Shown: positions 22,022 through 31,160 of the stretch, piece after piece
How positions within the stretch are numbered: position 1 is the stretch's first letter
How the letters are laid out: the number at the start of each line of letters is the position of its first letter
Assembly (NCBI RefSeq): GCF_003390325.1
Contig: NZ_QUOK01000003.1
Span: forward strand, 372,001-436,000
Source of the DNA: Rhodohalobacter sp. SW132
GTDB taxonomy: Bacteria > Bacteroidota > Rhodothermia > Balneolales > Balneolaceae
Direction: 5' to 3'
DNA length: 64,000 bases
The notes under the pieces: model-generated
Seen by the model: only the letters and a program-made list of their open reading frames with translations
The model's database searches: none
What the model was told of the DNA's origin: nothing
Made by a program: the position numbers and the translations under genes

Positions 22022-22633
22022 ATGCAAAGTTCATTATCCATCAAAACCGTCACCGGCAGTAGACTGATGCCATATACTGATAGCCTGGCCAGCCTGCGAA
22101 TCGAGGTTTTCCGGGAATTTCCCTATCTGTATGACGGATCGCAGGAGTATGAGCTGTCGTACCTCAAAACGTATCTGAATTCGGAAAACAGCATCGCCGT
22201 ACTTGTGATGGATGGAGATCAGGTTGTGGGGGCTTCCACCGGCCTGCCGATGACAGATGAGGAAGAGGATTTCAGACGGCCATTTCAGAAACATGGGTTA
22301 AATCCCGAAAACTATTTTTACTGCGGAGAATCGATTTTAAAGAGAGAGTACCGGGGACGCGGAATCTACCGCCGTTTATTTGAGGAGAGGGAATCCCATG
22401 CAAAAAAAATATCAGGCATCCATTTCACATGTTTTTGTGCTGTTCAGCGCCCGGATGACCACCCGCTTCGGCCTGATGATTACCAGCCGCTGGATCCCAT
22501 CTGGCAAAAATATGGTTACAAAAAAAAACCGGAGCTGCGCACCACCTATCGCTGGAAAGATATCGATGAAGAGTCAGAATCGGACAAAATAATGGTGTTT
22601 TGGGTGAAAGAAATTACAAGCTTCAGCGGATGA
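22022..22633 (+). CDS. GNAT family N-acetyltransferase
   Basis: A 203-residue cytoplasmic acetyltransferase. The GNAT acetyl-CoA site is visible as ESILKREYRGRGIYRRLFEERE (R-x-x-G-x-G/A type) around residues 101-122, preceded by VLVMDGDQVVGASTGLPM. Substrate unknown. The final codons (FSG-stop) run into the beginning of repeat array 2: the TGA lies inside a CAGCGGATGAGGG sequence that is also the terminal hairpin arm of both arrays. The original C-terminus may have been altered by the repeat. Confidence 0.85.
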   Translation: MQSSLSIKTVTGSRLMPYTDSLASLRIEVFREFPYLYDGSQEYELSYLKTYLNSENSIAVLVMDGDQVVGASTGLPMTDEEEDFRRPFQKHGLNPENYFYCGESILKREYRGRGIYRRLFEERESHAKKISGIHFTCFCAVQRPDDHPLRPDDYQPLDPIWQKYGYKKKPELRTTYRWKDIDEESESDKIMVFWVKEITSFSG

Positions 22634-23039: not shown

Positions 23040-24086
23040 TTAAATTGTTGCAAGGAGCTTATTACTAATTAAATCCGTGTAATTTTTTCTGTATTGAACT
23101 TTGTTTTCGATCGCCTGGATTACAGGGATTGAAAAATCCACACCTTGGAGTTCGCTTGCTCCCTGCAGTCCTCCGGGACTAAATACGTTAATCTCCATCA
23201 GTTTATCACCCACAATATCGAGCCCAACCATAAACATGCCGTCAAGCACAAGTTTCGGCCGAATGGTATCGACAATTTCGAGCATCGTATCATCAACTTT
23301 TACCTTCTCGGCACTTCCTCCGGCAGACATGTTGCTTCGAATATCCTCGCTTTCATTTACACGACGGATCGCCGCGTATTTCCCTTTCCATTTTAGCGCA
23401 TCACCATTTACCACGAATAACCGCACATCACCCTCAGTGGCTTTAGGTAAATATTCCTGGGCAATAACATATCCGTCGCGGCTAATCGCCTCGATCATCT
23501 GGTTCAGGTTTACTGCATCGTCCTCTTTTACCAGAAAAACACCTGCACCACCGGAGCCCTGGAGTGGCTTCATGATAATGTTGCCCCCCTGTTCTTTATG
23601 AAATTCCTGGATCTCTTTCGGGTCACGTGTAATGAGGGTATGCGGCCTCACGGATTCAGGAAAATGCTGGAAATACATCTTGTTAACGGCTTCTGACAGG
23701 CTATTGGGATCGTTCAGGACAATCACACCGTGCCTGAGGGCAAGCTGACCGAAAATCACAGATGCGTTTTTAGCCCATCCCCTGCCGACAGGTTCCGAGG
23801 CAGGATCATTGCGCAACAGAAGCACATCCAGGTTGTCAGCCGTTATCTTTTCTTCTATTGCACTATCATCCTTGATAGCCTTTATATAGGTCTTGGTGGT
23901 CTTATATTTATTGCCCGAAGCCCTTCTTGCTGTCGCCCCCATATGGCCGTCCGGATAGTACACCAGATCGGCAACACCGGTAAAATAAACTTCGTGGCCC
24001 AGGTTATGCATTTTCAGACCCAGGTAAACGGATGTATACTCCGCTATTTCGGTTTCAATATCATTTATGATCAGTGCGATTCTCAT
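23040..24086 (-). CDS. GshB-like ATP-grasp ligase
   Basis: A 348-residue ATP-grasp enzyme of the glutathione synthetase (GshB) type. Visible motifs are the N-terminal pre-ATP-grasp MRIALIINDIETE, the ATP-loop MKPLQGSGGAGVFLV (172-186), NMSAGGSA (252-259), and the Mg-binding GLDIVGDKLMEINVFSPGG (288-306; Glu298, Asn300). No glutamate-cysteine ligase gene is nearby, so glutathione is not an obvious product. It is the last gene of a minus-strand run, 47 bases after the QEGLA protein. Inference: it joins an amino acid or small peptide to a carboxylate, working with the neighbouring peptidase-like proteins. Confidence 0.88.
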   Translation of the reverse strand: MRIALIINDIETEIAEYTSVYLGLKMHNLGHEVYFTGVADLVYYPDGHMGATARRASGNKYKTTKTYIKAIKDDSAIEEKITADNLDVLLLRNDPASEPVGRGWAKNASVIFGQLALRHGVIVLNDPNSLSEAVNKMYFQHFPESVRPHTLITRDPKEIQEFHKEQGGNIIMKPLQGSGGAGVFLVKEDDAVNLNQMIEAISRDGYVIAQEYLPKATEGDVRLFVVNGDALKWKGKYAAIRRVNESEDIRSNMSAGGSAEKVKVDDTMLEIVDTIRPKLVLDGMFMVGLDIVGDKLMEINVFSPGGLQGASELQGVDFSIPVIQAIENKVQYRKNYTDLISNKLLATI

Positions 24087-24133
24087 TTAATTCTCTTTTA
24101 ATTTTATGATTGTGGATACATTCTTGAAATTAC

Positions 24134-26065
24134 TTATTCCTGCAAGAGGTCTAAGACGGATGATCCCTTTTTTAGCTGCTCAAGTTTCTCTCTGGCTCCG
24201 GGAAATTCCAGGTAGCGCGGACTCAGAGGTGCCGGACGCAAAATTCGACGATGCAGCAGCTCATTTATCAGCGGAAGATAGTCTTCACGAATTTTTCCGA
24301 TCAGGAGAGGCTGAAGCTCGTTGCCATTTTCCAGCCATTTAAGAACACGCATCAGTCCTTTCAGGTATATTGCGTCTTTGGTAAGTCCTCCCCCGCGGTA
24401 CACGCGCATTGTGATGGTGAATGCCTCCCGGGCATCGAACTCGTGATCTTCATGCAGAATATGAAACGATTCGACAAAATCAGCCCCGCGCATGATGGCC
24501 TGAACGGTAATTACCCTTGCTGCCAGAAGCCGAAGACGGCTCGGCAGCAGCCCCCCGACCAGGTATTCACTGAGCACCGCGAGGCCTTCCTGCAGCTCTT
24601 CATATCGGGGCAGCCCGCAATAGAGCAGTTTGAGCGGCTGGGCTTTCCCATTGTAATAGGTGAGGATGTGAGTACCCACTTCATGCTGTATCAATGCCTC
24701 TGCCCGCGCAGTTGAGATGCGGGCATCCGTCCCTATATGCAAATTTCCATTCGAAACGAGTAGCCCGGCGATATCATCCTGAACACACACCCTGGCATCA
24801 ATGGGTTCATACTGAGTATGATAGAAATCGATCTCTTTTCGGGCCATTTCGGCAAAATCATCCGGCGATATCATGTTTTGCTCGCTGCTGTCTGAATTCG
24901 GGGAAATGGCCGACAGCAAATCCGCAGCAAGGTTGGTCACCGATTCTTCAAGCGGACCGTAATATTGCATGCTTCCCGGCATGAACTCAGGCTTTCCGCG
25001 TTCTGTGAGCAGAGTCAGCATTTTATCGAGTTCGCTCCGTTTTTCCCGAAACATAAACTCCAGAGTTGGGTCTTCAACGCGTTCAATAGATAAATTATAC
25101 AGCTCGCGTTTGAGGATCTCCGGGTCTTCCGACATCAGCCTGTAATGAAACAGAGGTGTTTTTTTGAAATGATTGCTCTTGAAATACGACCAGGCTTCAT
25201 GAATATTTATGGGTGTAACCAATTGCAGAAAACTGAAACTGTCATCAATTCGGGCCAGATCAATATCTATTTCACGGGCCGGGCGAGTCATTAGTTGTCG
25301 TCCCAGCATTTGAAAATGAGAAACATCCAGATTCGTTTGGATTCTGACAAATTCAAAAAATGTACGGTTTAATGCCTTTGAGAGCTCTCGTGCCATTTTT
25401 CTGAGCAAAAGAGGATATGCTCTTCCGCTTTCGGAATTGATGTAAAACGGACGAATTTCCAACCCGATCAGCAGGGCCCCCATCTCTTTTAGATCATCCG
25501 CTTCCAGTAACTGCATCAGTCCGGGGGGATGGCGGTCATCCAGAGATATTTCTGCAGTTGCATTCTGATGTCCAATCAGGATTTTCTCCAGGTCTTTTTT
25601 CAGGTAGCTTACACTTGAATAGGCCACCTCGCGTGGTGCCCGGATATGAAAGTCTGCAGCAGGATCGGATTTTGTTGAAGGACGACCTGATTCTGCATCA
25701 TCCTCTTGAACCGTATCTCCGGATTTGAATGTGGGCTGTTCCGGCCAAATTTCAACAATCAGAAATGCTCCACTTTTTTTGGAAATTGTTTTTGCGATCG
25801 CACGCACGAGCGCCTTCAGATCTTCAAGCTTGCCATCGGCTGGTGCAATCAGAAAGGATGTCTGGGATCGCACCAACAGCCTGACCGCCCTGTTATCCCC
25901 ATCCTGCGGTTTCCGAAATACTACCAGAAAGGGTAAGGGGCGATCGAAGTGAAGCATTCCGCCGTCAGGCAGTTCCATTCGGACCTGCTCTCCTTCTTTA
26001 AGCTTTTGAGTCACATCCGCGATCACCTCTTCAAATGGTTCACTTACGACCTGGCTTTTTTTCAT
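24134..26065 (-). CDS. QEGLA-motif (DUF1704, MATCAP-like) putative metallopeptidase
   Basis: A 643-residue protein of the bacterial family often labelled flavohemoglobin expression-modulating QEGLA protein. The zinc-peptidase signature HEVGTH is at 461-466, and QEGLAVLSE (492-500) supplies the third ligand region. In eukaryotes the same DUF1704 fold forms the MATCAP enzymes, which remove the C-terminal tyrosine of tubulin. The N-terminal half (1-390) is an extra domain of unknown role. No signal peptide is seen, so it is cytoplasmic. Its ATG overlaps the stop of the amidohydrolase-like gene by one base, indicating tight coupling. The QEGLA function in bacteria is not established. Confidence 0.88.
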   Translation of the reverse strand: MKKSQVVSEPFEEVIADVTQKLKEGEQVRMELPDGGMLHFDRPLPFLVVFRKPQDGDNRAVRLLVRSQTSFLIAPADGKLEDLKALVRAIAKTISKKSGAFLIVEIWPEQPTFKSGDTVQEDDAESGRPSTKSDPAADFHIRAPREVAYSSVSYLKKDLEKILIGHQNATAEISLDDRHPPGLMQLLEADDLKEMGALLIGLEIRPFYINSESGRAYPLLLRKMARELSKALNRTFFEFVRIQTNLDVSHFQMLGRQLMTRPAREIDIDLARIDDSFSFLQLVTPINIHEAWSYFKSNHFKKTPLFHYRLMSEDPEILKRELYNLSIERVEDPTLEFMFREKRSELDKMLTLLTERGKPEFMPGSMQYYGPLEESVTNLAADLLSAISPNSDSSEQNMISPDDFAEMARKEIDFYHTQYEPIDARVCVQDDIAGLLVSNGNLHIGTDARISTARAEALIQHEVGTHILTYYNGKAQPLKLLYCGLPRYEELQEGLAVLSEYLVGGLLPSRLRLLAARVITVQAIMRGADFVESFHILHEDHEFDAREAFTITMRVYRGGGLTKDAIYLKGLMRVLKWLENGNELQPLLIGKIREDYLPLINELLHRRILRPAPLSPRYLEFPGAREKLEQLKKGSSVLDLLQE

Positions 26066-26871
26066 TACAGACCACCCGCGTGCACTTCTGTAATTTGTTT
26101 ACTATGAGTCAGCAATCCCGGAAGTGTAGATTTAAGAGCATTGTAAAGCGCGTTGAATTTCACCGGGTCGAGTTCATGAGTCCATTCATTCATAAAGATT
26201 TTTTTAAACTCAATAGCAATGGCGCAGCTCTGGTCGCCAAATTCCTGTTGTATCCAGCGTGAGAAATGGCCACCCTTAAAACGGATATTCTCACCCACCG
26301 TGAGGGGGCCACCCGGGTAATTGAACGTGCGAAGATCATTGGCAAGCCCGTCCACGACCGCCCCCCAGACATGCCTGTTCAGATTTTCCGTACCCAAATT
26401 TACATCGGGATTGCCGGCCGGATCAGCCGGTTCTGCATGCGGGCCCTCTCGCATATGATTGTAGCAGTGTATGTCGTAAACGATAACGTAACCATATTTC
26501 TGGATGATGCGGCCCAGAAATACTCTCGAATCTGCATAAAACCTGTCATACATGGCCAAAGATTTTTCTACCAATTCTTCCTCAGGATACTCTTTCCATA
26601 CATTGAGGCCCCACGCATCCTCTGGTTTACGGTACACAGCTAAACTGCGTTCACGGTTCAGGTCTACTTCGAACCGGGATTTCCTGACAATAATACGTGA
26701 CGGAACAATCGTGGTAAGTAAGTCTGTATGTGGATCTTCCTCGCGCAACCGCTCTGAATCAGTGAGGTTGTAGAGGGGTTTGAGCACGTTTCGCACATCA
26801 TGCCCGCTATGGAGTGCTACAGCCACAACAGGACCTTCTCCGGAATAAAATCTATATGATTCTCTGGACAT
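26065..26871 (-). CDS. N-formylglutamate amidohydrolase-like protein
   Basis: A 268-residue protein of the FGase/HutG-like family (zinc amidohydrolases related to carboxypeptidase-fold enzymes). Visible features are VALHSGHDV near residue 20, EEDPHTDLL (about 40-48), FEVDLNRER (about 66-74), IVYDIHCYNHM and IRFKGGHFSRWIQQEFG. No histidine-degradation genes are near, so hydrolysis of N-formylglutamate is doubtful; a glutamyl or aminoacyl amide in a peptide is equally possible. It is coupled to the QEGLA gene by a one-base overlap, a pairing I recall as recurrent in other bacteria (COG3930/COG3931). Confidence 0.87.
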   Translation of the reverse strand: MSRESYRFYSGEGPVVAVALHSGHDVRNVLKPLYNLTDSERLREEDPHTDLLTTIVPSRIIVRKSRFEVDLNRERSLAVYRKPEDAWGLNVWKEYPEEELVEKSLAMYDRFYADSRVFLGRIIQKYGYVIVYDIHCYNHMREGPHAEPADPAGNPDVNLGTENLNRHVWGAVVDGLANDLRTFNYPGGPLTVGENIRFKGGHFSRWIQQEFGDQSCAIAIEFKKIFMNEWTHELDPVKFNALYNALKSTLPGLLTHSKQITEVHAGGL

Positions 26872-27312
26872 TTTTTAACTCCTGAAAGGAATCTTCTCTT
26901 AAAATCTTAATTTTAAAACTACCTTTTAGTCTTTACCTACAGACCTGTCTCTTAAAACTTCTCTCACTTCTATCTCTTATTGTAATTGCAAAAACTCAAT
27001 CAGGTTCCATGAATCTCAATTCATGTACACAGGCAACCTATACCTGGATATAATTCTCTAATATTCTTTAGTTGGTGGTTTGATACTTATTGGCTCAGCT
27101 GACTCCCACAGCTGGCAATATTGAATACGAAAGGAGACCTAATGACTCTTATTTATAAGAACGTCTTCATATGGTAATACGTATTGAGTACTATAGTAAA
27201 ATCCTGTTTCAGTAAATTCTGGAGAATCCCAATTTTACGTGGCTTATTTAGAGCGGTAACTTTTTCGAATGGCATCGAACGATGTCAGCATGCAGTGGCC
27301 GGCAAACCACCA
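26872..27312. other. 441-base gap, probable promoter region for the amidohydrolase-QEGLA-GshB run
   Basis: No gene is seen. The gap contains TAATACGTATTG at 27175-27186, matching the palindrome before the DinB-fold gene. Its size suggests that the three downstream genes have their own promoter, separate from the ATP-grasp/SET gene. Confidence 0.4.
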
Positions 27313-28791
27313 TCATGACATACTCCCGCTATCCTCTCTTTCCGTCTTTTTCTTAACGTAGACTGAAACGTGCTCCCCATATTTTTCCCTCACAAAATCC
27401 GACCTGTAATCGGTTCCTTTTATCAGTCCGCGACAGTCATTTGCCCCGCACTTGCAGGAAAAAGGCTCCATGATCTCATTGCAGAACGTGGCATAGTCAA
27501 GAGTGATCTCCTCTCCGGCCCGGATTGATCTGCGGGCGGTCACATTCAATCCCGTCAGCCAGACATTGGGATCGCAGGAGTGATTTATTGGAGTCCACTC
27601 ATCGGGGTCCGGACTCCACATCACATAGATCTCGTCGCTAATCGGCCATGCATACTGCCTGAACCACCTCTTTTTTTCTTCACTCCAGTTGTTCATCACG
27701 TGTGAACGACTGACCAGGTGGTGTTTCTGTTCCTCATGTTCAAAAATGAGCTCATCCTTCAAAATATCCTTTGTGGCTACAATTCGATAACCATATTCGG
27801 GGTGAAATGTCCGCTCCCATGGTTTTTGGAAGACGCGATTCATGGCTGATTCAAGAATGAGTTCCACAAAATGTTCGTGGCCGCGTTCGTCATTCAAAAG
27901 AATGAGATCGGCGCTCCCTTCAGCTCCGGGAGGATAGAAGATTCCGCAGTTTGGGTTGATCTCAAGCATATAGGCCTCGTTATTTTCATTCACGCGCAAA
28001 TCGCACCGCCCGTAACCGGTTCCGTTTAATCCTTTAAACAGGCTTCGGGATGCATGCATCAATTGATCTGCAAGCGCTCTCTCTTCAACCGCCCTGGTTT
28101 TCATACCACTGTAGTTGATCCATTTCAGATCAAAATGCTTGAACCGTTCTCCCGGCGGAAACAGAAACTCAAGGGGTTCATAGGCTGCCGGATGATCCGG
28201 ATTATCGGGATTTTCAGCAACAAGAACCGTGAATTCGCGTCCTTCGATAAACTCTTCCACCATAGCTTGCCCAAACCGGTCGATCATGATCCGGGCCTGC
28301 TTGAGCAACTGTTCACGGTTTTCGACACGTGAGGATGACGTAAGGCCGATACTGCTGTAGCTGTTCGGATGTTTTACGATGAGCGGATATTGAAGATTGC
28401 GTGTTTCGGTTTTGAGATCATCCGGGTTAGTGATGATCACATGACCGGGAACCCTGACCCCGTAATACCGGCACACCATTTTCATCAGGTCGCGGGTTGG
28501 GTCGTAGAATGAGCTGCCGGCCCCGGTAAAGGGCACGTTAAACCGCTCCAGGGCCTGCACCACTTCAATCCCGGCCCGGTCCTCATCCCAGCTGCCGTCG
28601 CAAAGGTTTACGAAAACATCAAAACCCTGCGAGACCAGTTCCGTCACGCGGCGGATAGCCGTTTTTTTATGCAGAAAATGGTGCTCGATTTCATGTCCCT
28701 TAAAATATGACTCGGGTGAAGATGCCATGTCGTGGGATTTCATGGGTGAATCCGATGATTCATAGGCGCTTTCGAGAATGCATATTTTCAT
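27313..28791 (-). CDS. ATP-grasp ligase fused to a SET-domain methyltransferase
   Basis: A 492-residue two-domain protein. Residues 1-320 are a D-Ala-D-Ala-ligase-like ATP-grasp domain: IVKHPNSYSSIG (Lys140 for ATP), MVEEFIEGREF (177-187), and GRCDLRVNENNEAYMLEINP (261-280; Glu277 and Asn279 for Mg). Residues about 330-465 are a SET domain: YGYRIVATKDILKDELIFEH, NHSCDPNVW (403-411, the S-adenosylmethionine-pocket knot), AGEEITLDYATF (425-436, with the catalytic Tyr), and a post-SET-like CKCGANDCRG (446-455) with Cys437. The fusion implies that ligation and lysine or amine methylation act on the same substrate. The reading frame is continuous, so it is not an artefact of adjacent genes. Confidence 0.88.
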   Translation of the reverse strand: MKICILESAYESSDSPMKSHDMASSPESYFKGHEIEHHFLHKKTAIRRVTELVSQGFDVFVNLCDGSWDEDRAGIEVVQALERFNVPFTGAGSSFYDPTRDLMKMVCRYYGVRVPGHVIITNPDDLKTETRNLQYPLIVKHPNSYSSIGLTSSSRVENREQLLKQARIMIDRFGQAMVEEFIEGREFTVLVAENPDNPDHPAAYEPLEFLFPPGERFKHFDLKWINYSGMKTRAVEERALADQLMHASRSLFKGLNGTGYGRCDLRVNENNEAYMLEINPNCGIFYPPGAEGSADLILLNDERGHEHFVELILESAMNRVFQKPWERTFHPEYGYRIVATKDILKDELIFEHEEQKHHLVSRSHVMNNWSEEKKRWFRQYAWPISDEIYVMWSPDPDEWTPINHSCDPNVWLTGLNVTARRSIRAGEEITLDYATFCNEIMEPFSCKCGANDCRGLIKGTDYRSDFVREKYGEHVSVYVKKKTEREDSGSMS

Positions 28792-28802
28792 GACGGAAGG
28801 TA

Positions 28803-29292
28803 GTCTTTAATCATAAGTGGTTTAATTCCCCGACCCATTGATTCGGAAAACATAAAAGTCCCCCTTTGAAGGTAATCTCACAAATATTAGCCAACAATAT
28901 ATTTTTCCCTTGGTACTTTTGAGCGTTCAAAAGTACCCAAAAACCGCCGGGCGAATGATTCCTTCAGGCGGGCTTTGCGGTCCGTTTTGCGATGTAAAAA
29001 CAATGGTCCATCTCACTTTGTTACTTTAATCTAAGATTTGGCCGGTATGTTTTTACAAACATCGCATACACTCCCCGAAAAGCACCCACCGCCTTCAGAA
29101 ATCAGAGGCCGGTGAATCTTGGGTAAACAATAAGATCATGAATTACAAAAAAAATCCAGCAAAATTTAAATTCTAAAGTTAGTAACATTGCTTTTGAGGA
29201 GGACGCGAACGGAGTGAGCAGAATAAACTCCATATTGACCAAATAATTATGGCTTCTAATTTGATACCTCGTGGGCTCTGCCCCGAGGTAGT
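28803..29292 (-). repeat. Mosaic intergenic repeat, copy 2
   Basis: On the minus strand it begins at ACTACCTCGGGGCAG, directly after the TGA of the gamma-glutamyltranspeptidase gene, and ends with GGGTCGGGGAATTAAACCAC and TTATGATTAAA, twelve bases before the ATP-grasp/SET start. Both ends match copy 1 at 1913-2087. The internal 300 bases (about 28880-29190) are unlike copy 1 and include GCGGGCTTTGCGGTCCG. No gene is credible here. Confidence 0.75.
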
Positions 29293-31017
29293 TCATTCAC
29301 CGCGTGCAATTCCCCGAATTCTCGGATCCGCCCCTCCTCTCCACTGGTTGAGCGCCTGCACCCATTCAATTCCATGGACACCGCTTTCCATTTCAGTAAT
29401 GTTCACCCGGTGGCCCATTTGCTTCAGCTCGGGCCCGGCCAATTCGGCGTCGGTTCCGTATTCAAGTTCGAGTCCGTCGCCGCGATGCACTACATTGGGC
29501 AGATTGATAGCATCCTGCACTGAGAGCTCCCAGTCAATCACGCCTACCATCGTCTTGACCACGTACCCGATGATGCGGCTTCCGCCCCTGGAGCCTATCA
29601 CCAGCCTGGGATCGCCATCGGGGCTCATCACAAAAAAAGGAGACATCGAACTTCGCGGACGCTTACCGCCCTCAACACGGTTGGGAAGCGGTCGTCCGTC
29701 GATCTCAGAAGTAAATGTGAAGTCAGTCAGCTGGTTGTTTAAAATAAACCCGTTAGTCATAATCCGGCTTCCGAACGGTACCTCGATGGAGGTCGTCATG
29801 GAAACCCAGTTGTCGTCTCCATCTGCAATCGAAAAGTGACTCGTTCCGGTTGTCTCCTGCTCGTCGGGCAGCGTGACATCATCCAGCTCAGGTTCCATCA
29901 GCTCTGGCGATCCGGGCTTTGGGTCCTCCATTGCGAGTTCACGATCGATCAGCGCGGCCCGCTCCCGCAGGTAGTCCGGACAAATGAGTGCGTCCACCGG
30001 CACATCAGTGAAGTCGGGATCACCAATGTAGATTGCGCGGTCGGCGAAGGCAAGCCGGCTCGCTTCGGCAATCAGGTGGGCAACTTCGGCCGAGTTCGGC
30101 TCCATCGATGCAATATCAAACTGCTCGAGAATGCCCAGAATCTGAAGTACGGTAATTCCACCTGAGGATGGCGGAGCCGGTCCGCAGAGTTCGTGACCCC
30201 GATAAGCGCCGCAAACCACTTCCCGCTGTTTCGGTTCGTAGCCGGCGAGATCATCCAGGGTAATATCGCTGCGGCGGGGCCGGCGCGAACGGGCGGCGTC
30301 TACAATATCATCCGCAATTTCACCCTCCAGAAGTGCTGATGGTCCTTCATTAGCGATACGGCTTAGCGTTTCGGAAAGCTCCGGGTTGCGGAGCACCGGC
30401 TCATCTCCCCCCGACTGCTGGACAAGATACCGGCGCAGGTCACCAAAAAAACGAAGCGAAAAATCCCGCTCAACCTGTCGTTTCAGCTGATCCGGATACG
30501 GAACGCCCCCGGCTGCAGCAGTGATGGCTGGTTGAAACAACTCTGCCCATTCCAAACTCCCGTGCTGCTGATGGGCTTCGTATAGCATAGCCACAGTGCC
30601 CGGCACACCAACAGAGGAGCCGGTCGGAATCGCAAGGTATAGCGGCATGGGACGGCCAAACAGCCACGTGAACCGATCTACCGTGGCGGCTGCGGGAGCC
30701 GTTTCTCGTCCGTCGAACATTACCATTTCGCCGGTTTCCCCGTTGCGGAACATCATGAAGGCTCCGCCTCCAATACCGCTTTCGGCGGGTTCGACAAAAG
30801 TGAGCATCATCTGCACAGCCACGGCTGCGTCCACTGCATTTCCGCCGCTTCGAAGCATGTCCAGGCCAGCCTCAACCGCCAGGTCATTCGCAGCCGCAAT
30901 CATGAATCGATCCGCCAACTGCTCTTCAGGCTGCTGGACGGGTGTTAGATTAGGAGACCGTTGACCTTCACACGCCTGCAGCACAACTACCAGCAGCATT
31001 ACAGGCAACATCCTCAT
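29293..31017 (-). CDS. ggt: Gamma-glutamyltranspeptidase
   Basis: A 574-residue Ntn-hydrolase that cleaves or transfers gamma-glutamyl groups outside the cytoplasmic membrane. The start at 31017 yields MRMLPVMLLVVVLQAC, a lipoprotein signal; the frame opens 27 residues earlier at 31098. The large-subunit signature AANDLAVEAGLDMLRSGGNA and the self-cleavage site TTGTSHFSIADG are present; in the long frame the predicted nucleophile is Thr419, the new N-terminus of the small subunit. GSRGGSRIIGYVV near the C-terminus completes the family pattern. It is the first gene of the minus-strand ligase and peptidase neighbourhood, although a 500-base repeat separates it from the next gene. Confidence 0.92.
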   Translation of the reverse strand: MRMLPVMLLVVVLQACEGQRSPNLTPVQQPEEQLADRFMIAAANDLAVEAGLDMLRSGGNAVDAAVAVQMMLTFVEPAESGIGGGAFMMFRNGETGEMVMFDGRETAPAAATVDRFTWLFGRPMPLYLAIPTGSSVGVPGTVAMLYEAHQQHGSLEWAELFQPAITAAAGGVPYPDQLKRQVERDFSLRFFGDLRRYLVQQSGGDEPVLRNPELSETLSRIANEGPSALLEGEIADDIVDAARSRRPRRSDITLDDLAGYEPKQREVVCGAYRGHELCGPAPPSSGGITVLQILGILEQFDIASMEPNSAEVAHLIAEASRLAFADRAIYIGDPDFTDVPVDALICPDYLRERAALIDRELAMEDPKPGSPELMEPELDDVTLPDEQETTGTSHFSIADGDDNWVSMTTSIEVPFGSRIMTNGFILNNQLTDFTFTSEIDGRPLPNRVEGGKRPRSSMSPFFVMSPDGDPRLVIGSRGGSRIIGYVVKTMVGVIDWELSVQDAINLPNVVHRGDGLELEYGTDAELAGPELKQMGHRVNITEMESGVHGIEWVQALNQWRGGADPRIRGIARGE

Positions 31018-31160
31018 CACAAAAAAAGAAGACCGCCGTAAAAGCAGTCCCAAAACAGATAAACTTGAAGAAAAATGGATCATGACACAAATATACAAAA
31101 ATGAGTCATCTCAACACCTGAAATCCGGTTACTGTTTGATCGGTTGCAGCCAAACTTACA

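Follow-up and report, generated by a model that had tools for sequence, protein, structure and literature searches.

Five neighbouring genes on the minus strand of Rhodohalobacter sp. SW132 encode two ATP-grasp proteins, a metallopeptidase, an amidohydrolase and a gamma-glutamyltranspeptidase (GGT), and raise the question of whether they form one system, and of what such a system would act on. They lie within the window, the whole 64,000-nucleotide stretch of DNA that was analysed. The open reading frame list and family profiles return the same five genes, families and strand that a sequence-only reading of this DNA had given:

29293-31017 or 29293-31098, minus strand: GGT (PF01019, 1.2e-138)
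27313-28791, minus strand: fusion of a D-Ala-ligase-like ATP-grasp domain (residues 126-283; PF07478, 5.4e-19) and a SET domain (residues 334-433; PF00856, 2.1e-11), a neighbour of the triad
26065-26871, minus strand: FGase-like amidohydrolase (FGase), the triad's first gene, 268 aa (PF05013, 3.1e-17)
24134-26065, minus strand: long MATCAP/QEGLA metallopeptidase, triad (PF08014, 2.8e-88)
23040-24086, minus strand: GshB-like ATP-grasp ligase, the triad's last gene, 348 aa (PF02955, 1.4e-52)
23040-26871, minus strand: the triad of FGase, MATCAP/QEGLA peptidase and GshB-like ligase

The 1-base overlap between the FGase and QEGLA genes and the 47-base gap between the QEGLA and GshB-like genes were also correctly described. 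The grouping of all five genes into one set does not hold: FGase and the SET fusion lie 441 bp apart, the fusion and GGT 501 bp apart, and what recurs elsewhere is a three-gene block. Promoter and terminator scans of the locus gave no signal above shuffles, and analysis of its sequence composition gave nothing decisive.

A three-gene unit conserved across bacterial phyla

FGase, the MATCAP/QEGLA peptidase and the GshB-like ligase form a conserved and widespread bacterial gene unit. Neighbourhoods were compared at 80 MATCAP loci spread over about a dozen phyla, the best 80 of 573 confirmed, a sample which therefore favours the long peptidase form found in the window (two of these loci, L083 and L106, were judged to repeat the genomes of L036 and L033). 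Across these best 80 of 573, the ligase lies within 3 kb of MATCAP in 79 and FGase in 67; five have an aspartoacylase-type (AspA) enzyme in place of FGase, none has both, and eight, some of them at contig ends, have neither in reach. Linkage survives rearranged gene order (L052, L084, L089, L107 and L116), and FGase-peptidase fusions were found among relatives; the FGase step is replaceable by an aspartoacylase-type enzyme, or can be fused to the peptidase. In a phylum sample of 198 genomes, MATCAP occurs in 18 (as a lone MATCAP in one of them, G210), and the ligase accompanies it at 16 of the 17 loci besides the window's. Among Pseudomonadota (a MATCAP match in 47/398 genomes, with 34 of the listed places taken as loci), the ligase is present at 12/34 sampled loci and absent at 22/34, from which it follows that MATCAP alone has other uses. 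MATCAP matches are also carried by 127 of 72,556 plasmid records, mostly rhizobial replicons, and by one phage record.

The gene-neighbourhood check that the sequence-only reading had proposed thus bore out these three genes as a system across phyla and refuted membership of the SET fusion and GGT. Because the fusion is absent from triad neighbourhoods, the methylation step that had been assigned to the system drops out with it. No linked substrate gene or small conserved partner emerged from clustering of ORFs of at least 90 aa near triads, and no linked substrate gene from a Pfam search of 148 near-triad ORFs chosen from 234. The triad is apparently uncharacterised so far, Iyer et al. 2009 (Mol Biosyst 5:1636) lying outside that comparison.

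Predicted catalytic features of the amidohydrolase and the peptidase

Judged by its conserved residues, the catalytic site of the window's FGase is intact. The protein belongs to its family by PF05013 score (63.9 bits, cut-off 28.9), and its AF2 model (pLDDT 95.3) has the N-formylglutamate amidohydrolase 2q7s as its best PDB match (Z 24.6, 238 residues, rmsd 2.9), followed by another N-formylglutamate amidohydrolase (Z 22.2) and, at Z of about 12, by carboxypeptidases and phage poly-gamma-glutamate hydrolases; a sequence search with the FGase profile against the PDB gave no match at E 0.01 despite this clear fold match. H21, E44, E45 and H135 are invariant in 77/77 relatives and are predicted, from the M14-like fold, to be metal ligands. 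Against the HutG N-formylglutamate deformylase model (TIGR02017) the protein scores 29.2 bits, below the cut-off of 278.75.

26809-26811, minus strand: FGase H21, predicted metal site
26737-26742, minus strand: FGase E44/E45, predicted metal site
26467-26469, minus strand: FGase H135, predicted metal site
25280-26065, minus strand: peptidase residues 1-262, degenerate FGase domain
24137-25279, minus strand: peptidase residues 263-643, MATCAP-type metallopeptidase domain (PF08014, fold)
24668-24685, minus strand: peptidase HEVGTH 461-466, HExxxH zinc motif
24587-24592, minus strand: peptidase Q492-E493 of the QEGLA motif, predicted third ligand

The window's peptidase is predicted to be a MATCAP-type zinc carboxypeptidase. 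It scores 296.8 bits against PF08014 (cut-off 27), and its AF2 model (pLDDT 91.6) matches the MATCAP structures 7z5g and 7z6s at Z 24.5-24.6, the human MATCAP 7z6s over 291 residues (Z 24.6, rmsd 3.0, 20% identity). H461, E462, H466, Q492 and E493, which provide the HExxxH motif and distal Glu, are invariant in 70/70 relatives, and QEGLA aligns with EEGLA of human MATCAP. A new finding concerns the N-terminal half of the long peptidase, which is a degenerate copy of the FGase domain and lacks its metal site. Profile comparison with FGase (hhalign) gives this domain a probability of 94-96 (E 9e-8 and 7e-9), against less than 1 for all five controls; the model of residues 33-243 matches 2q7s (Z 13.7, 179 residues, rmsd 4.0), and the metal site is replaced by R51 (91/95), E105 (92/95) and W107 (75/95). 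At 330.3 bits the protein falls below the TIGR02421 QEGLA equivalog cut-off of 338.65. Lone TIGR02421 proteins ("flavohemoglobin expression-modulating QEGLA motif protein") share the peptidase domain but are mostly of about 390-480 aa and have neither FGase domain nor ligase; they fall mostly in separate clades of a quick tree that came with a long-branch warning and omitted near-duplicates.

A proposed make, trim and deacylate cycle

We tentatively favour a cycle of making, trimming and deacylation whose substrate would be an acidic peptide or protein tail with an N-acyl group and which would be tied to osmotic downshift. The cycle would be reversible and cytosolic: the ATP-grasp enzyme would spend ATP to extend an acidic, N-blocked substrate by an amino acid at its C-terminal carboxylate, the zinc carboxypeptidase of MATCAP type would remove that residue, and the FGase/AspA-type enzyme would then hydrolyse the N-acyl (or gamma-type) amide of the remaining acidic amino acid. 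The degenerate FGase domain would probably hold this same acidic group in place during cleavage by the peptidase. Of the two candidate substrates, a small N-acyl acidic peptide is somewhat favoured over a protein tail. It counts against the proposal that the top 25 families among the 148 ORFs near triads include no N-acyltransferase. The earlier suggestion of a glutamyl-type peptide or protein tag that is ligated and trimmed was a fair guess at a putative substrate for the triad, and fails in its five-gene scope.

The enzyme set is the one known from the mammalian N-acetylaspartylglutamate cycle, which consists of the RIMKL ligase, glutamate carboxypeptidase II (GCPII) and aspartoacylase, and the proposal also agrees in its logic with the RimK/protease/AspA trio of the window's own genome. 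The mammalian cycle, too, has a ligase, a metallocarboxypeptidase and a hydrolase of N-acyl acidic amino acids, and AspA replaces FGase in some triads; the triad's carboxypeptidase and ligase are nevertheless of other families, and the likeness is one of analogy. Within the same genome, a second cluster (C5:281500-284200; GCS2-like ligase, RimK-like ATP-grasp and FGase) also places FGase by ATP-grasp/carboxylate-amine ligases, but it has no MATCAP peptidase and its FGase is of a different branch.

The cycle would serve adjustment to falling osmolarity. In one species, and there for the GshB and QEGLA genes rather than the whole triad, expression at low salinity (1% NaCl) was raised 38.4-fold for GshB (RS17020) and 27.5-fold for the adjacent QEGLA gene (RS17025; PMC10308900). 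Counted post hoc, MscS channel genes are also more frequent near triads than chance would give, with 12 of them in 8/30 triad loci against 0.94 expected; these loci were hand-picked, mainly for long flanks, among the best 80 of 573, and are the very ones in which the link was first noticed. Outside them, MscS is found at 3/12 Pseudomonadota triads and 1/17 phylum loci. The 148 near-triad ORFs include six MscS, four dicarboxylate symporter and two CorA matches by Pfam. A fuller version of the proposal is doubtful as a whole: the triad would act on acidic peptide ends as a switch of ligase, carboxypeptidase and deacylase that osmotic downshift induces, the degenerate domain would be the substrate-holding half of the peptidase, and the peptidase branch would be the bacterial part of a family that supplied animals and alveolates with MATCAP for tubulin tails.

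Alternative explanations

Reversible modification of protein tails, in which the ligase would add to a C-terminus (or Glu side chain), the peptidase remove the addition and FGase/AspA clear or edit the tag, is conceivable but on the unlikely side. RimK adds residues to S6 in this way, and TTL, itself an ATP-grasp member, to tubulin. The RimK/RimB/AspA cluster has the same three roles in the window's own genome (L213), one of the 6/10 RimK loci at which RimK, a PF05618 protease and AspA occur together; like the triad, it joins a peptidase to an ATP-grasp ligase of the GshB/RimK branch and to an amidohydrolase of AstE/AspA or FGase type. It differs in that the triad's ligase is GshB-like, its MATCAP fold is unrelated to RimB (the retropepsin-like PF05618 protease), FGase rather than AspA is present in most loci, and the peptidase carries the degenerate FGase domain. 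The TTL/MATCAP (TMCP) tubulin cycle shares a zinc carboxypeptidase of MATCAP fold, with HExxxH and distal Glu, and an opposing ATP-grasp ligase; unlike it, the triad has no tubulin, an extra degenerate FGase domain and a third enzyme. Human relatives of the peptidase, whose fold the window's protein matches, trim tubulin tails and remove polyglutamate, as passages of PMC10499314 describe. Against this reading, ORF clustering and Pfam linked no target gene to triads, and a simple tail cycle leaves the need for an N-acyl-type amidohydrolase unexplained.

Cytosolic recycling of cell-wall peptides, in which the ligase would rebuild muropeptide stems, the hydrolases would trim them and wall load at low osmolarity would induce both, is improbable. 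Csd4 and similar cell-wall carboxypeptidases do have a fold like that of FGase, and mechanosensitive channels lie near triads, but the top 25 families found beside triads include none of the mur, amp, ldc or transglycosylase kind.

In a pathway for glutathione or a gamma-glutamyl tripeptide, the ligase would be a true glutathione synthetase and the hydrolases would recycle its product. The ligase scores high enough for the PRK12458 "glutathione synthetase" subfamily model (NF009110; 438.6 bits, cut-off 408) and matches E. coli GshB (1gsa) at 6.9e-34, but reaches only 203 of the 299.05 bits required by the glutathione synthetase model TIGR01380; RimK-family models are also missed (TIGR00768, 86.4 against 143.4; PRK10446, 47.2 against 331). 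GshB-type residues are kept, so the substrate cannot be read off the ligase. Searches for TIGR01380, PF04262 and BshC covered 30 genomes, namely the phylum sample's 18 genomes with MATCAP and 12 from the 80 loci. All 18 of the former have the bacillithiol gene BshC, and none, the window's genome (G000) included, has the glutamate-cysteine ligase PF04262, nor any of the 18 a canonical GshB by TIGR01380; canonical GshB stands besides the triad ligase in three genomes (G417, G418 and G420). In the PF04107 search, which covered 18 genomes, the window genome's one match is a YbdK-like protein beside the FGase of another cluster, at 18-41 bits against YbdK/GshA cut-offs of 176-409 bits. With BshC in all 18 genomes and canonical GshA/GshB in none, the triad ligase is unlikely to make glutathione; glutathione synthesis was rejected as the main role, and the pathway as a whole is highly improbable.

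The SET fusion belongs to another cluster. Its full-length form occurs in 8/198 phylum-sample genomes, the seven other than the window's all lack MATCAP, and in 6/7, those with the far side covered, its neighbours are stand-alone SET genes and those of an ABC transporter. Two ATP-grasp pairs that resemble it (L060 and L067) were discarded, as they have no SET domain, and one carries a GNAT domain. GGT looks exported from its hydrophobic, lipobox-like N-terminus, and the triad proteins have no export-type N-terminus. Separately, at L191, a lone QEGLA without ligase has a GGT-like gene about 8 kb away. A single system of all five genes, with SET methylation and GGT turnover, has shared strand and adjacency in the window in its favour, but neither the full-length fusion nor GGT was found in 20 loci or near the 80 MATCAP loci (best 80 of 573), and both are missing beside the triad of the nearest relative (G195), so that a conserved five-gene system is refuted and the reading can be set aside as exceedingly improbable, though a local regulatory link could exist.

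Significance

In the database records examined, bacterial MATCAP/DUF1704 proteins are annotated solely as "flavohemoglobin expression-modulating" and the triad ligase solely as "glutathione synthase". The ligase should not be read as evidence of glutathione synthesis, as one transcriptome paper did. With the ligase and peptidase placed in one unit alongside an amidohydrolase, a peptidase family of about a dozen phyla gains a pathway that can be tested, and the family whose animal members trim tubulin tails gains a bacterial context.

Gene content of the region

Open reading frames and profile matches agree on the positions and families of the five minus-strand genes that the sequence-only reading had proposed as a single peptide ligation, trimming and methylation system:

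23040-24086, minus strand, GshB-like ATP-grasp ligase
24134-26065, minus strand, MATCAP/QEGLA peptidase
26065-26871, minus strand, FGase-like amidohydrolase (FGase)
27313-28791, minus strand, ATP-grasp/SET fusion
29293-31017 or 31098, minus strand, gamma-glutamyltranspeptidase (GGT)

The spacing claimed for the first three (hereafter the triad) was also borne out, with FGase and peptidase overlapping by 1 base and 47 bases separating peptidase from ligase. FGase and the fusion are separated by 441 bases containing no ORF of at least 100 aa, and the fusion and GGT by 501. The N-terminus of GGT is a hydrophobic stretch with a lipobox-like LQAC at its end, a feature that the triad proteins lack. 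A GNAT-type acetyltransferase gene (22022-22633) is convergent with the triad at a distance of about 400 bases, and GNAT is not within the 25 commonest families around other triads.

Conservation of the triad across phyla

Among the 17 other MATCAP loci found in 198 genomes of the window's phylum, the ligase adjoins the peptidase in 16 and FGase does so in 13; all three loci with ligase but without FGase carry an aspartoacylase-type (AspA) gene, and the sole exception, L022, has MATCAP alone. In a second, multi-phylum sample (the best 80 of 573 confirmed MATCAP loci, neighbours counted up to 3 kb from the peptidase), ligase is present in 79/80, FGase in 67 and AspA in 5, with FGase and AspA together in none and neither in 8. 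These 80 loci cover Bacteroidota, Planctomycetota, Poribacteria, Acidobacteriota, Calditrichota, Gemmatimonadota, Kiritimatiellota, Verrucomicrobiota, Actinomycetota, Campylobacterota, Thermodesulfobacteriota, Myxococcota and Pseudomonadota. Over all scanned loci having both genes, the distance to the peptidase is at most 300 bases for ligase in 102 of 113 and for FGase in 92 of 97, and the triad genes stay close together where order and strand vary (L052, L084, L089, L107, L116).

In the nearest relative, G195, whose peptidase is 81% identical, the triad occurs without the SET fusion or GGT; neither gene was found in 20 MATCAP loci including those of the phylum sample, nor were full-length relatives of either near the best 80 of 573. 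Two weak ATP-grasp matches near these 80 loci were rejected as SET-fusion relatives because they have no SET domain. The co-occurrence proposed for five genes thus holds for ligase, peptidase and FGase, which recur across phyla, but not for the SET fusion and GGT.

Full-length relatives of the fusion occur in 8 of the 198 phylum genomes, the window's included. The seven other loci (L136-L142) form a distinct conserved cluster, in which stand-alone SET-like genes flank the fusion on one or both sides. An ABC transporter adjoins it in the six loci where that side is covered (L139 reaches the contig end), and three have a second, D-Ala-ligase-like ATP-grasp gene; these neighbours were identified visually or through similarity to the fusion, with Pfam run on four of them. 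A search found no MATCAP in these seven phylum-sample genomes. The window's fusion (27313-28791) is an orphan whose SET and post-SET cysteines look canonical.

MATCAP occurs in 47 of 398 Pseudomonadota genomes; the ligase accompanies it at 12 of the 34 places examined there and is missing from the other 22. Most lone MATCAP proteins are short, and they group largely in a clade of their own; from these ligase-less loci and the mostly separate clade it follows that the MATCAP-ligase link is not universal, and that lone and triad forms both exist.

Several loci depart from the simple arrangement. Planctomycetota L062, L071 and L076 carry a tandem pair of peptidase-ligase sets; the triad ligase is divided between two frames, through either decay or sequencing error, in L053 (11300-12363), L091 (11822-12864) and L062 (2046-3097); and in flavobacterial L028 (13184-14224), L029 (6978-8033) and L105 (6909-7946) one peptidase is flanked by two different triad-type ligases. 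An unannotated Pseudomonas phage Y1 record (OQ572403.1, 63533-64708) has a MATCAP/QEGLA-like match (E 2e-6, 25% identity).

A degenerate FGase domain in the peptidase

The window's peptidase is a long form, with its MATCAP domain starting at about residue 263. Its first half matches the FGase profile with hhalign probabilities of 94.4 and 95.8 (E 8.6e-8 and 7.1e-9), against less than 1 for five control pairs; an earlier, smaller test gave 73% (E 3e-5). Two parts of the AlphaFold2 model (pLDDT 91.6) match known structures: residues 280-642 fit human MATCAP (7z6s; Z 24.6, rmsd 3.0 over 291 residues), and residues 33-243 fit the N-formylglutamate amidohydrolases 2q7s (Z 13.7, rmsd 4.0 over 179 residues) and 2odf (Z 11.6). 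H21, E44, E45 and H135 are retained in 77/77 stand-alone FGases; at the aligned places of 95 long peptidases, R51 is found in 91, E105 in 92 and W107 in 75, and the E44/E45 loop is absent from the alignment.

FGase domains fused to the peptidase occur in Photobacterium, Vibrio, other Pseudomonadota and L027. Photobacterium sp. GJ3 (L148) has the ligase and a fused FGase-peptidase whose FGase domain matches Pfam and keeps its site; in L195 the site is partly lost. FGase and peptidase are therefore tied in three ways, as gene neighbours, as a predicted active fusion, and as a degenerate fused copy alongside a free, probably active one. In a peptidase tree built by a quick method that carries a long-branch warning, the long form is one supported clade (89 rows, a single one being lone), and another clade combines three lone rows with the fused and short-triad forms.

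Related modules and genomic context

A RimK-like locus was surveyed in each of 10 of the MATCAP genomes (Pfam on ten proteins, with phmmer matches or visual inspection for the rest). RimK is contiguous with a PF05618 protease and an AspA-type enzyme in 6/10, including the window's genome:

G000:C2:377500-387500 (L213), PF05618 protease/RimK/AspA-type trio

The other four have AspA and RimK, protease and RimK, an apparent protease-RimK fusion, and RimK alone. The RimK system attaches glutamate residues to ribosomal protein S6 (PMC11957791). Trio and triad share a common logic, but the triad's ligase, peptidase and amidohydrolase differ.

A Photobacterium damselae study (PMC10308900; growth tests at 1% and 3% NaCl) reports increases at 1% NaCl, relative to higher salt, of 38.42-fold for 'glutathione synthase GshB' A0J47_RS17020 and 27.51-fold for QEGLA A0J47_RS17025. 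As the locus tags neighbour each other, we infer one operon. A Vibrio vulnificus comparison (PMC3091676) places VV2_1203 (COG3930) and VV2_1204 (glutathione synthetase) in a clade-2-specific gene list.

Of 30 chosen loci, 8 have MscS-type channels close to the triad (12 genes, where whole-genome counts predict 0.94), and CorA genes number 3 against 0.15, an excess counted in the loci where it was first noticed, with non-independent tandem copies. Outside those 30, MscS occurs in 3/12 Pseudomonadota triads, CorA adjoining in two, and in 1/17 phylum loci. Adjoining MscS-type and CorA-type genes are seen near triads of distant bacteria (L061 15113-18577, L203 1-3043, L207 3647-7782). In a Pfam survey of 148 of the 234 ORFs lying up to 2.5 kb from 62 triads, MscS (6) is the commonest non-regulator family, followed by AspA (5) and sodium:dicarboxylate symporters (4); LysR regulators number 7. 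Retropepsin-like proteases have reportedly been tied to hypo-osmotic survival in Pseudomonas.

Proposed mechanism and substrate

The triad ligase passes the PRK12458 ('glutathione synthetase') subfamily cut-off and scores 203 against TIGR01380, below its cut-off of 299; the authors of PMC10308900 treat A0J47_RS17020 as glutathione synthetase. We surveyed thiol genes in 30 genomes (18 phylum-sample MATCAP genomes, 17 with adjoining ligase, and 12 others). Canonical GshB is present in 3/30, there additional to the triad ligase, PF04262-type GshA in 2/30, and PF04107 in 6 of the 18. BshC, a bacillithiol enzyme, is present in 22/30. Glutathione synthesis was rejected as the main role on the sub-cut-off TIGR01380 score, the absence of PF04262-type GshA and canonical GshB from all 18 phylum-sample genomes and the presence of BshC in 18/18, the window's included. 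The window genome's PF04107 match sits in a second FGase cluster of that genome (L135, G000:C5:281500-284200), which comprises FGase, a GCS2-like (YbdK-like) ligase and a RimK-like ATP-grasp.

We found no publication describing the triad in the accessible MATCAP/QEGLA, FGase, RimK and low-salinity literature; Iyer et al. 2009, on amidoligases, may mention it. Among the matches listed, papers naming TIGR02421/COG3930/PF08014 concern Plasmodium, save one on bacteria that mentions COG3930.

By family, the ATP-grasp ligase would join an amino acid to a carboxylate, and fold and motif suggest that the MATCAP-type zinc site would then take off a C-terminal residue. Human relatives of the peptidase strip tyrosine and glutamates off tubulin tails (PMC10499314). 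The exchange of FGase for AspA suggests a third step, in which the N-acyl or gamma-type amide bond of an acidic amino acid would be hydrolysed; since both enzymes act on N-acylated acidic amino acids, their interchange gives the strongest indication of the substrate. The mammalian N-acetylaspartylglutamate cycle uses the same enzyme set as the proposed steps and, by this analogy, we favour a small N-acyl acidic peptide as the substrate of the triad, a protein tail being the main rival.
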